Positions 52,030 through 56,329 of a stretch of DNA of 64,000 bases are shown here, piece after piece. The DNA is from Methanospirillum lacunae. Lineage in GTDB: Archaea; Halobacteriota; Methanomicrobia; Methanomicrobiales; Methanospirillaceae. The notes below the pieces were generated by a model. It saw nothing but the letters and a program-made list of their open reading frames with translations, had not been told where the DNA came from and did not search any database. Both the position numbers and the translations under genes were made by a program. The stretch spans positions 62,001 to 126,000 of the forward strand of contig NZ_QGMY01000007.1 of assembly GCF_003173355.1 (NCBI RefSeq), given 5' to 3'. Each line of letters starts with the position of its first letter. Position 1 is the first letter of the stretch.

Positions 52030-52441
52030 TGACCTGATGAAAAACCTTGCCCGGTTGATCGAGCAGGTCACAGGTCTCGACCAGAATATGCGCTACCCCG
52101 GAGACAATGAGTTTGAAGCACCCCATATCATCGGGTGTGCCATCATCACCAGCGGATCTACTGATCAGGAGATCCCACTCAGAAAGCCGTTCGAAGTAGG
52201 GTACGAGATTGTGGATGCAGATGAGGTTGCATTCCTGACCATCGCACTCCCATCATCACTCTCTGCACTTCCAGAGATAGAATTTGATTTGGATAAGGTA
52301 TTTATCACTGCAGGAGGAGCCCGGGCACCAATTGACCTATCATTTCAGATCATCCCTGAATCATGTACTTATACCATCATGAACGGGGTTGTGGATATCA
52401 CTCTCACAAAGGCTGTTATCCCAGCGGATATCACCGAATAA
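52010..52441 (+). CDS. Hsp20/alpha-crystallin-like protein
   Basis: A 143-residue soluble protein. The N-terminal 35 residues are helical, followed by a beta-sandwich of Hsp20/CS type (FEVGYEIVDADEVAFLTIALP, IEFDLDKVFITA, VVDITLTKAV). The classical A-x-x-x-n-G-v-L of small heat-shock proteins is not clear, so it is a distant member, comparable to those often paired with ArsR regulators in methanogens. It starts inside the end of the regulator gene. A chaperone role is inferred. Confidence 0.7.
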   Translation: MPNNPYDDLMKNLARLIEQVTGLDQNMRYPGDNEFEAPHIIGCAIITSGSTDQEIPLRKPFEVGYEIVDADEVAFLTIALPSSLSALPEIEFDLDKVFITAGGARAPIDLSFQIIPESCTYTIMNGVVDITLTKAVIPADITE

Positions 52442-52511
52442 TCTATTTTTCCTTGACACCTGCCTCGAGAGAACTCATCTGTTATCAACAGAGAAAGCAT
52501 ACAACTCACTC

Positions 52512-53858
52512 ATGATAGTGGTGGTCGGTGGAGGACCGGCTGGAAGGTATGCAGCCATGCAACTTGCCGGGGCAGGCAAAGAAGTCCTGCTTGTTGACAA
52601 ACGCAGTGATGGTCTTGGAGGCCAGTGTCTCCATCAGGGCTGCATGGTCATCTGTGCCCTCAATGATGTCGCAAGGACCATGGAGCATCAGGAGATGCTT
52701 TTCAGGTCTGGTATTATCGCAACAAGCCCTGTGCCAGATTACACCGCCCTTATTGCAAAGATGAGGGAGATCATCGAAACAATCGCCGGCATTATTGCTA
52801 AAGAGACCAGCACTGCAGGAGTGAAGGTTGTAAAAGCTGAAGCACACATTGACGGCCGGACAGTAATCATCAATGATGAACGATTTCAACCTGAAGCCAT
52901 AATCATCGCAACCGGCACACACCCACGAAGACTCAATGTCCCTGGAAAGGATCTCCCGGGAGTTATGACCGCACACACGTTCTTCTCTCTTCCCTCCCTT
53001 CCCAGGGAACTGGTCATCATCGGCGGCGGTGTCATCGCTGCAGAGATCGCATACATATACTCTCTCCTTGGATCAGCTGTTACCATTCTCGCCAGGAGCA
53101 CACTGCTCAAAGAATTCCCTGAAGTCCTGGCACATGAAGCAAAAAAAGAACTCCATCGGGTCACCATCCAAGAACAGGTAGTAGTGTCCAGGATTGTTGG
53201 GGATGATCATGTTTCAGGAGTTGAGATCAAAACATCAGATGGCTTCAGGATCATCAAGGCTGACACCGTACTTGTGGCTGCAGGAACAGAGGCAGAAATT
53301 CGTACAATCACAGGTATTCCACTCACTCCAGGCGGGTTCATCAGAATAAATGAACGGATGGAAACAGAAATTCCAGGAGTATATGCTGTTGGAGATGTGA
53401 CAGGAACCTCGTCGCTGACCCCGGTTGCACGCTGGCAGGGACGTACCGCTGCTGATGTCATACTCGGAGGAGAGCCACCATCACCATTACTTACCGTGCC
53501 ACAGGCGATAAAATTAAGAAACGATCTCGCCTTTTGCAATCACCATGATCAGGGAGGTATGAAGGTGACCATGACATCACCTGCAGGACCAGGGAGTTTC
53601 TGGGCGGTTCCGGAGCGGGCCACCGGAAAAGCATCGATGACTACAGACCCTGATTCTGGTGAAATTATCGGGATGTTTGAAGCCTCCCCATATGCATCGG
53701 TGATCGCAGCGTACCACGCCCTCCTAATCAACACGGGCATCTCTATCGATGTAATGAAGCAGTTTATCGAGGTTCACCCGTCAGCAGACGCAACAGGCTG
53801 GATAGGCAGATATCTTGCTGAGAAGATCGATAAGAAAAAACAGATTAGATCCCTATAG
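52512..53858 (+). CDS. FAD-dependent pyridine nucleotide-disulfide oxidoreductase
   Basis: A 448-residue flavoprotein of the dihydrolipoamide dehydrogenase class. The FAD site is VVVGGGPAGRYAA. The redox disulfide pair is GGQCLHQGCM (CxxxxC). The NAD(P) site is ELVIIGGGVIAAEIAYIY, and the second FAD motif is GVYAVGDVTG. The C-terminal dimer domain carries VHPSADATG, in place of the usual HPT-x-x-E. The partner substrate is unknown, as no lipoyl complex genes are near. ATG at 52512 gives the proper N-terminus; longer frames run into the Hsp20-like gene. Its stop lies 2 bases from the NrdD stop. Confidence 0.9.
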   Translation: MIVVVGGGPAGRYAAMQLAGAGKEVLLVDKRSDGLGGQCLHQGCMVICALNDVARTMEHQEMLFRSGIIATSPVPDYTALIAKMREIIETIAGIIAKETSTAGVKVVKAEAHIDGRTVIINDERFQPEAIIIATGTHPRRLNVPGKDLPGVMTAHTFFSLPSLPRELVIIGGGVIAAEIAYIYSLLGSAVTILARSTLLKEFPEVLAHEAKKELHRVTIQEQVVVSRIVGDDHVSGVEIKTSDGFRIIKADTVLVAAGTEAEIRTITGIPLTPGGFIRINERMETEIPGVYAVGDVTGTSSLTPVARWQGRTAADVILGGEPPSPLLTVPQAIKLRNDLAFCNHHDQGGMKVTMTSPAGPGSFWAVPERATGKASMTTDPDSGEIIGMFEASPYASVIAAYHALLINTGISIDVMKQFIEVHPSADATGWIGRYLAEKIDKKKQIRSL

Positions 53859-53860
53859 GG

Positions 53861-56056
53861 TCAGGAGACCAGAGCCTGGTGTTCAGCGGTCACCTTTGGT
53901 GACTCAAATGAAGTGACTGGAACCTTTTTTCCTTTATATTCGGTGAATTGATGGAGACTGACTGTCAGATCCCTGGTAAAGGCAAAGTAGCCGATCTGGG
54001 TGTTTCTGCAGAGTTTCATTGCCATGTCCATGAGTCCACGGGGATCAGGACGTGCTTCTCCGAGCCAGATATGAAAGATATTCCCGCCATCAACTATCGG
54101 GAAGAAGACATGCTCGAGTTCGGCCCGCCGTGCCAGAGAGATATCTGCTCCTGGGGCAACATGAGTACCATTGGTGTAGTACACTGGAAGATCGCGTGTA
54201 TCACCCAGATGATCCAGGGCATATCCAAGGTTGCCCTTGATAACCAGTTTTGCGTGATCCTCAAACTCACGACTGAGAAGATCAGAGATCGCAAAACGTT
54301 GTCCGGTTGTCTCGGCCGGGGTTCGGGCAAGAGCAATGGTCATCCCGTGCTTTGCAGTGATCTCACGGGCATAGAGTTCCATTTCAGTCATAGCCCGCAC
54401 CGCAAGCCTGAATGCATCATCACTCTCATGAAGCTGTGAGCCGGTAAAATGCTGCACCATCTCGTTCAGGCCCACAACACCGATGGTGAAGACCAAGCCA
54501 TCAAAGTCCACAGCCATAGCACCTCTCTCACCTGTGATCGGATCACGGGGTCGCTGCATGGCAAAGGGCATCCGCCCATTCCTGCCGATGAGATCCATCC
54601 ACCTGACTTTGATCCTGAAAACCTCGACGGCAACATCCATCAGGGCTTTCAACTCAGCAAAGAGGCGATCTTCATCACCACCTGCCTTGTAGGATGCCCT
54701 TGGGCAATTGAGCGAGACGACGCCCCATGAACCCATTGAGAAGTGCATCCCATCCTCGAAGTAGAGCTTTCGATCAAAATCCTTGTCCTGATCTGCAACT
54801 GTTGAGAACTGGTACGCACAGCACTGGTAGCATGAGATCCCTTCTCCAGCTCCCCGGTAAGCTGGAAGCTGGTTGTCATAGTATGGCGTACCGAACTTTG
54901 ATGCGAGCTCGAATGTGAGCAGGTAGAGATCTGTATAGGTCGGAAGATCAGGATGAGCACTGTTATACTGCTCATCCTCCTGCATAAAGTCAGGCTCGAT
55001 GCTGATCTCCGGTTTTGGGAAGTTGAATGGTTTTCCCCAATAATCCCCTTCCAGCATCACTTCCATGAGTGCCTTAAAGAGGAGACGAACCTCACGTTCA
55101 AACTCACCATAAGTCCGAAGAGGGGCTTGTTTCCCATTCCAGACCCGGCCATTGTATACACAGGGTTTGTCTCTCCATAGCCGTGGTACACCGGGTGAAA
55201 GTTGCACAGATGAAAAGACCAGCTGACCACCACGAGCGACCATCATCTGGGTCATCTCGTAGACAAACATCTGCATGAGCTGCTTCATCCCCTCGTAATC
55301 CATCCGTTCAAAGAATGGTGCTAAAAACGTCAGGAAGTTATAGTAGCCCTGCCCACCTGCAAAGTTTGTCTGTGCTGACCCGAGTGCTTTTACTGCATGA
55401 AGCACGGCAACTTCAGCACGCTTCGCCGGCCCTGCAACAGATGCCTTGGTACCATTTCCGTCAGGCATCAAGCCATAGTACAGGAAATATCTGAGATCCC
55501 AGTCCTGACAAAACGGTCTGCTACCAAAGTACTCCAGATCATGGATATGGAGATCCCCACAGAGATGCCGATCTGCAAGATGAGGGGGAAGCTGGAGCAG
55601 GTACTGTTCCTTGCTAATCTTATCAGCTTTCTTTTTATGCGAGGTCTCTGCATTTTCCTGCAGATTCGCATTATCTTTAGCCTCAAATCCCCGCCCGACA
55701 TCTATGAGATGGGCATCGTACACCGGGGTTCCTACCCTTGTACAGACATTGCGATACTGAACCATACCGCGTTCCAGGAGGACAATATTCATGACCTCCC
55801 TGATCAACGGCCCGGATAAACTCTTGAGACCCAGCTTTCGGATACGGTCCTCAACTTCCCTGGCAATCTCACGGGCACACTCCTCGTCTGCCCCTTCGTA
55901 CCCGTAAAAAGTCTCGACCAGCCGTGTCTCCTTGACGATCTGCTTCGCTATCTTTTCCCGGTCCCATTCCAGAATATGTCCGTCACTAGTCCTGACGGAT
56001 GGCATCGCCGGAATCGAGAGACCATCAAGTGTAACCTGTTTTGATATGCGTCCCAT
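53861..56056 (-). CDS. nrdD: Anaerobic ribonucleoside-triphosphate reductase lacking the glycyl-radical C-terminus
   Basis: A 731-residue class III ribonucleotide reductase. Residues about 18-110 are an ATP cone (HILEWDREKIAKQIVKET). The barrel has Cys183 in RPFCQDWDL and the thiyl-radical Cys451 in SLNCPRASY. After GYFAFTRDLTV, where archaeal NrdD proteins normally show zinc cysteines and then the RVxGY glycyl-radical loop, this protein has only 32 further residues (SLHQFTEYKGKKVPVTSF and a tail) with no Cys or RVxGY, and no other frame supplies them. Its 3' end abuts the convergent flavoprotein gene by 2 bases. A glutaredoxin-like gene lies just upstream, 9 bases away. Either a separate subunit supplies the radical or the enzyme is inactive. 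Confidence 0.88.
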   Translation of the reverse strand: MGRISKQVTLDGLSIPAMPSVRTSDGHILEWDREKIAKQIVKETRLVETFYGYEGADEECAREIAREVEDRIRKLGLKSLSGPLIREVMNIVLLERGMVQYRNVCTRVGTPVYDAHLIDVGRGFEAKDNANLQENAETSHKKKADKISKEQYLLQLPPHLADRHLCGDLHIHDLEYFGSRPFCQDWDLRYFLYYGLMPDGNGTKASVAGPAKRAEVAVLHAVKALGSAQTNFAGGQGYYNFLTFLAPFFERMDYEGMKQLMQMFVYEMTQMMVARGGQLVFSSVQLSPGVPRLWRDKPCVYNGRVWNGKQAPLRTYGEFEREVRLLFKALMEVMLEGDYWGKPFNFPKPEISIEPDFMQEDEQYNSAHPDLPTYTDLYLLTFELASKFGTPYYDNQLPAYRGAGEGISCYQCCAYQFSTVADQDKDFDRKLYFEDGMHFSMGSWGVVSLNCPRASYKAGGDEDRLFAELKALMDVAVEVFRIKVRWMDLIGRNGRMPFAMQRPRDPITGERGAMAVDFDGLVFTIGVVGLNEMVQHFTGSQLHESDDAFRLAVRAMTEMELYAREITAKHGMTIALARTPAETTGQRFAISDLLSREFEDHAKLVIKGNLGYALDHLGDTRDLPVYYTNGTHVAPGADISLARRAELEHVFFPIVDGGNIFHIWLGEARPDPRGLMDMAMKLCRNTQIGYFAFTRDLTVSLHQFTEYKGKKVPVTSFESPKVTAEHQALVS

Positions 56057-56065
56057 GCCGCCTTC

Positions 56066-56329
56066 CTACTGAAGAGCTGCAATGGCACTCTCGTTCACGG
56101 TATCGGATCCCCCGAAAAGTTCCTTACTTGTAAGAAACTTCTTCCCCATCTGAAGGACCGGCGCCTCCTGAACAAAAACGCCATTCACCCGAAGCTCAGT
56201 CAATGAAGCGGCTGATGACATGTCTGCTATGCTGAACCGAATGCCCTGCGACTCAAGATACTCTTTGAGTATCTCACATCGCGGACAAAATTCTAGGGTA
56301 TAAACGATGAAGCCTGCCCCGTCTTTCAT
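56066..56329 (-). CDS. Glutaredoxin/NrdH-like redoxin
   Basis: An 87-residue thioredoxin-fold protein with CPRC (Cys15, Cys18) in VYTLEFCPRCEILKEYL, and the cis-Pro loop EAPVLQMG. It sits 9 bases upstream of nrdD and is transcribed first, so it is probably the electron donor of the ribonucleotide reductase. Some NrdD subtypes use glutaredoxin-like donors in place of formate. ATG start; short spacer to the divergent thpR gene. Confidence 0.88.
   Translation of the reverse strand: MKDGAGFIVYTLEFCPRCEILKEYLESQGIRFSIADMSSAASLTELRVNGVFVQEAPVLQMGKKFLTSKELFGGSDTVNESAIAALQ

Follow-up and report, generated by a model that had tools for sequence, protein, structure and literature searches.

The window, the 64,000-nucleotide stretch of the Methanospirillum lacunae genome analyzed here, carries on its negative strand a gene for a class III ribonucleotide reductase, nrdD (53861..56056), directly preceded by an nrdH-like glutaredoxin gene (56066..56329, negative strand). 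On the positive strand, a gene for a dihydrolipoyl-dehydrogenase-like flavoprotein disulfide reductase with a CLHQGC motif (52389-53858) converges on nrdD; the 2-base gap between the two ends given in the initial annotation was confirmed. Judging by the open reading frame, Pfam matches, alignment, and tree, nrdD encodes an NrdD3-type catalytic subunit of 731 amino acids without the glycyl-radical domain (GRD). NrdDs of this kind are referred to below as split, and those with the GRD on the same chain are referred to as fused.

The window NrdD scored 438 bits against PF13597 and 461 bits against TIGR02487 (cutoff of 326), and its catalytic barrel is present. The ATP cone recognized earlier (residues 20 to 101; 55754..55999, negative strand) was recovered as a PF03477 match with an E value of 2.7e-4, below the curated cutoff. 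Also as proposed, the first-strand active-site cysteine Cys183, found in RPFCQDW (55508..55510, negative strand), was conserved in all aligned NrdDs. The finger loop S408-C-Y-Q-C-C-A414 (54815..54835, negative strand) bears the QCCA signature and two candidate thiyl-radical cysteines. Because this SCYQCCA loop aligns with MGCR/MCCR in other NrdDs, the radical cysteine of the window NrdD is predicted to lie within the C412/C413 pair. The thiyl-radical position had previously been assigned to Cys451, an assignment that we withdraw: Cys451 sits in N-C-P-R, and other NrdDs have leucine, methionine, or valine at its place. The finger-loop motif, GISCYQCCAYQF, is of the QCCR/A type without methionine, which defines the NrdD3 subtype according to PMC9669993. 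The AlphaFold model of the protein, built from six sequences only, was weak (pLDDT of 64.4), and the top Foldseek matches of the model, all of them class III NrdDs, support the fold only.

The glutaredoxin consists of 87 amino acids and has a CPRC active site. Its pairing with NrdD had been remarked upon from the start and is ordinary for NrdD3: a glutaredoxin was found upstream of nrdD in 29 of the 30 other split loci examined, and many fused NrdD3 loci likewise have an operon with an NrdH-like redoxin. Redoxins of the NrdH type serve as reductants of NrdD3 enzymes, and the window glutaredoxin is the usual NrdH partner. The flavoprotein, considered as an NrdH reductase or a conserved partner of nrdD, was rejected, being found beside nrdD in the window genome only among the loci checked.

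Class III reductases acquire their glycyl radical through NrdG and S-adenosylmethionine in an RVxGY loop; within the barrel, this loop is positioned against the finger-loop cysteine. The window NrdD ends before that loop. It matched positions 1 to 511 of the 562 positions in the Pfam NRDD profile, and, as initially described, GYFAFTRDLTV is followed by 32 residues with neither a cysteine nor an RVxGY loop. This tail (residues 700 to 731; 53864..53959, negative strand) lies past the fission point in the alignment. Neither the window NrdD nor any of the 31 split NrdDs had a C-terminal zinc/glycyl-radical domain on the same chain. Where fused enzymes have the first zinc cysteine, the window NrdD has serine and most split NrdDs have serine or alanine. 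Six of the 31 keep a cysteine where the zinc domain once began (DLTVCL), a trace of a fused ancestor. The earlier statement that the other minus-strand frames of this 3' region do not restore the domain also held, as neither tblastn with real GRDs nor a six-frame scan for RVxGY gave a credible hit in the window.

Searched against the whole genome, the NRDD profile found matches in two places only, the window nrdD and G000:C16:63664-63828, with the latter matching positions 503 to 562 at 56.5 bits. The second match falls within a gene for a protein of 122 amino acids (G000:C16:63472-63840, which is L002:1309-1677) composed of an intact GRD and an N-terminal zinc-ribbon part, with the motifs CPLCG..CPECG..SRVTGYL..WNAGKQQELKDR. 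Residues 63 to 119 are the NrdD glycyl-radical domain, with the motif SRVTGYLQDVSGWNAGKQQELKDR; this domain matched positions 534 to 580 of TIGR02487 and residues 697 to 736 of PDB 8p23. The extra residues 1 to 62 (about 65) are zinc-ribbon-like, CHxCH..CPxCG, and show weak Spt4-like similarity. An AlphaFold model of the protein was of low confidence (pLDDT of 63.8, and less than 50 in the glycyl loop).

The initial annotation had offered two explanations, a radical domain encoded elsewhere as a small GrcA/YfiD-like subunit or truncation of the gene through a rearrangement, and had called for a genome search for a small RVxGY protein, NrdG, and a second nrdD. The separate small subunit was found, in the same genome, as the 122-residue protein with SRVTGYL, and NrdG2 was present above the curated cutoff. 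The whole-genome NRDD search revealed no intact second nrdD. The GrcA/YfiD part of the proposal was not borne out: a PF01228 profile search of the genome gave no match, the small protein lacks a PF01228-type domain and matches the NRDD C terminus instead, and the NrdD that coexists with it is truncated rather than full length.

The GRD protein belongs to a conserved family. Profile-profile comparison of the stand-alone GRDs with the C termini of fused NrdDs gave a probability of 99.8 and an E value of 2e-30. The stand-alone profile matched 57 of 57 fused NrdDs and 0 of 31 split NrdDs; split NrdDs and stand-alone GRDs are complementary sets. Across 45 named GRD sequences, the glycyl motif and the cysteine pairs show little or no variation. 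The gene is under strong purifying selection, with Ka/Ks values mostly between 0.02 and 0.10 within Methanospirillum. Its neighborhood, pyrF, GRD, a CbiZ-like gene, and replication protein A, is conserved (L002 and L075-L154), and in several genomes the GRD gene and the start of the CbiZ-like gene share 4 bases. Host GRD genes and nrdD are unlinked, lying 19 to 1,136 kb apart in closed or nearly closed genomes.

Our survey covered 232 genomes of the class, 25 from a single genus (G020-G044), inferred to be Methanocorpusculum, and 207 others; it includes many MAGs, in any single one of which an absence means little. NRDD matches were found in 203 of the 232 genomes, which puts the observation well beyond chance. 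Outside the 25-genome genus, NrdD was present in 203, the GRD gene in 192, and NrdG2 in 193 of 207 genomes; inside it, each was present in 0 of 25. About 15 genomes outside this genus had no GRD match and 4 had no NrdD match, and nearly all of these are incomplete or fragmented assemblies. The shared loss in one genus is weak as statistics because it represents a single event. NrdG2 scored above its curated cutoff and followed the same distribution, and it would be the activase that acts on the small chain.

Among the matches listed, the catalytic part of NrdD ended near profile position 510 to 516. The relatives with a split NrdD, including Methanospirillum, Methanoculleus, Methanoregula, and Methanolinea, are Methanomicrobiales, and NrdDs of the wider phylum outside this order are full length (positions 1 to 562), some of them with inteins. 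Comparison with other Methanomicrobiales, another check suggested at the outset, placed the end of the match at the same profile position throughout the order, and the truncation is therefore not an error. A sequencing or assembly frameshift that removed the zinc and glycyl-radical domain has in its favor only the caution voiced in the initial annotation. It is refuted by the recurrence of this truncation in about 200 genomes assembled independently and by the lack of a GRD-coding remnant in any frame of the window, and its probability is practically negligible. Separately, many Methanomicrobiales (e.g., G048, G051, G086, and G121) have nrdD frames of about 1,200 amino acids with an interrupted profile match, a pattern as expected of inteins inside nrdD.

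The genome that contains the window also encodes a class II reductase, NrdJ, and the truncated NrdD might on that account be a decaying or repurposed paralogue in a cell served by NrdJ. This is extremely unlikely. Two closed relatives, Methanospirillum G198 and G201, carry the split NrdD, the GRD gene, and NrdG2, and two profiles detected no class I or class II enzyme in either genome; no reductase other than the split NrdD could be found there. No active-site motif has been lost from the NrdD, and its branch lengths are ordinary. Furthermore, the genus without NrdD relies on NrdJ, which was found in all 14 of its genomes tested, and has lost NrdD, the GRD gene, and NrdG2 together. Decay of a gene cut by a rearrangement, as initially considered, is refuted by the order-wide truncation, the conservation of both genes, and the single nrdD. 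Within Methanospirillum, the occurrence of NrdJ is patchy (absent from G198, G200, G201, G203, and G208 and present in G000, G204, G205, and G207).

Host split NrdDs formed one clade (SH-aLRT of 99; 100/100 in a second tree), which indicates one fission among hosts. This clade adjoins the fused NrdD3 enzymes of Methanosarcinales and related families, to which it is most closely related in the tree. The stand-alone GRDs, host and viral, together formed one clade apart from the fused GRDs (98/100). Viral split NrdDs were found on long branches, and the AU test of their common origin with host split NrdDs gave a P value of 0.39.

A scan of viral contigs for NrdD identified two, L251 (127.7 kb) and L254 (135 kb), in which genes for a GRD, NrdH, and a truncated NrdD follow one another on the same strand. 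In the first operon (L251:5324-8073), two bases separate the end of nrdH from the nrdD ATG, and in the second (L254:5484-8007) the genes abut or overlap. The products matched NRDD positions 507 to 562, Glutaredoxin, and NRDD positions 1 to 513, and both contigs carry phage-type baseplate, DNA polymerase, helicase, and clamp-loader genes. Of all the evidence that the truncated NrdD and the small protein act jointly, this physical linkage is the strongest. The viral operons may reflect how the split enzyme was arranged ancestrally, or they may have arisen through a separate split. Two further viral contigs carry a fused NrdD of the Methanosarcina type.

The scan for GRDs yielded seven records (L235-L241) with a stand-alone GRD, several of which carry terminase or baseplate genes; no NrdD catalytic region was found in any of the seven. 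A possible role for these GRDs is takeover of the host reductase through its radical subunit. One viral GRD (L239:5028-5354) has an 11-residue insertion immediately after RVTG in the glycyl loop, RVTGSKSKSCASLHGNLQDV, and its function is doubtful.

The seven records are reminiscent of phage T4 Y06I, and the small chain, a glycyl-radical domain with an N-terminal extension, resembles YfiD. It could accordingly be a spare part that repairs oxygen-cleaved NrdD rather than a constitutive subunit, and PMC8683613 contains speculation on such parts for other glycyl radical enzymes. However, these genomes hold no full-length NrdD to be cleaved and rescued, and sister lineages that do have one (e.g., G348, G426, and G534) each gave one NRDD match only, without a spare copy. 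Because there is no intact NrdD to rescue, the GRD protein is not a rescue device for an intact enzyme, and for want of an intact partner enzyme it would have to be an obligatory subunit; we consider the repair function very unlikely.

Taken together, the sequence comparisons make it highly probable that the class III reductase is an NrdD3-type enzyme of two chains, with the catalytic one encoded by the window nrdD and the glycyl radical provided in trans. The gene would have been split in the ancestor of the Methanomicrobiales where the barrel meets the zinc/glycyl-radical domain. Since then, the latter would have come from the unlinked GRD gene, with its approximately 65 additional N-terminal residues and further zinc-ligand pairs. 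The small chain is expected to dock in the NrdD barrel at the place of the fused domain, and its extra zinc part may give the affinity that replaces the lost covalent tether. NrdG2 would abstract a hydrogen from Gly97 (SRVTGYL) of the small chain, the radical would move from Gly97 to the finger-loop cysteine C412/C413, and NrdH would re-reduce the NrdD active site.

The fused NrdD3 enzymes of Methanosarcinales and relatives share with this putative two-chain reductase the QCCA loop, the ATP cone, the barrel, the upstream NrdH-like glutaredoxin, and a homologous GRD, but there the GRD is on the same chain, whereas here it is separate, unlinked, and joined to an N-terminal zinc-ribbon part. A class III enzyme with NrdH from Methanosarcina barkeri was reportedly described by Wei et al. 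in 2015. GrcA/YfiD and T4 Y06I, the spare glycyl-radical domains of pyruvate formate-lyase, are also small separate proteins, viral ones included, but the GRD protein differs in family, partner, and zinc sites. According to PMC9669993, the class II reductase NrdJa/NrdJb is also divided, one chain being catalytic and the other a zinc-finger C-terminal part; that enzyme is cobalamin dependent, and its split-off part serves re-reduction rather than storage of a protein radical. We found no description of a split NrdD in the openly accessible literature searched, and prior publication is possible. In every description of a class III reductase or glycyl radical enzyme that we found, the radical glycine is on the catalytic chain, and separate glycyl-radical proteins appeared in that literature only as repair parts for pyruvate formate-lyase.

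As a naturally split enzyme, this reductase offers a radical domain that can be activated, studied, and swapped alone. The split makes testable the access of NrdG to the glycine, the crossing of the radical over the interface, and repair of O2 damage by subunit exchange. We tentatively suggest, as a possibility that falls short of an even chance, that the radical part is an exchangeable subunit, cheap to replace after O2 damage, and that viruses of these methanogens supply their own to drive or redirect the host catalytic chain. Carrying only the radical subunit, of about 13 kDa, may thus be a viral strategy. For annotation, both genes should be counted together when DNA precursor synthesis in methanogens is inventoried.
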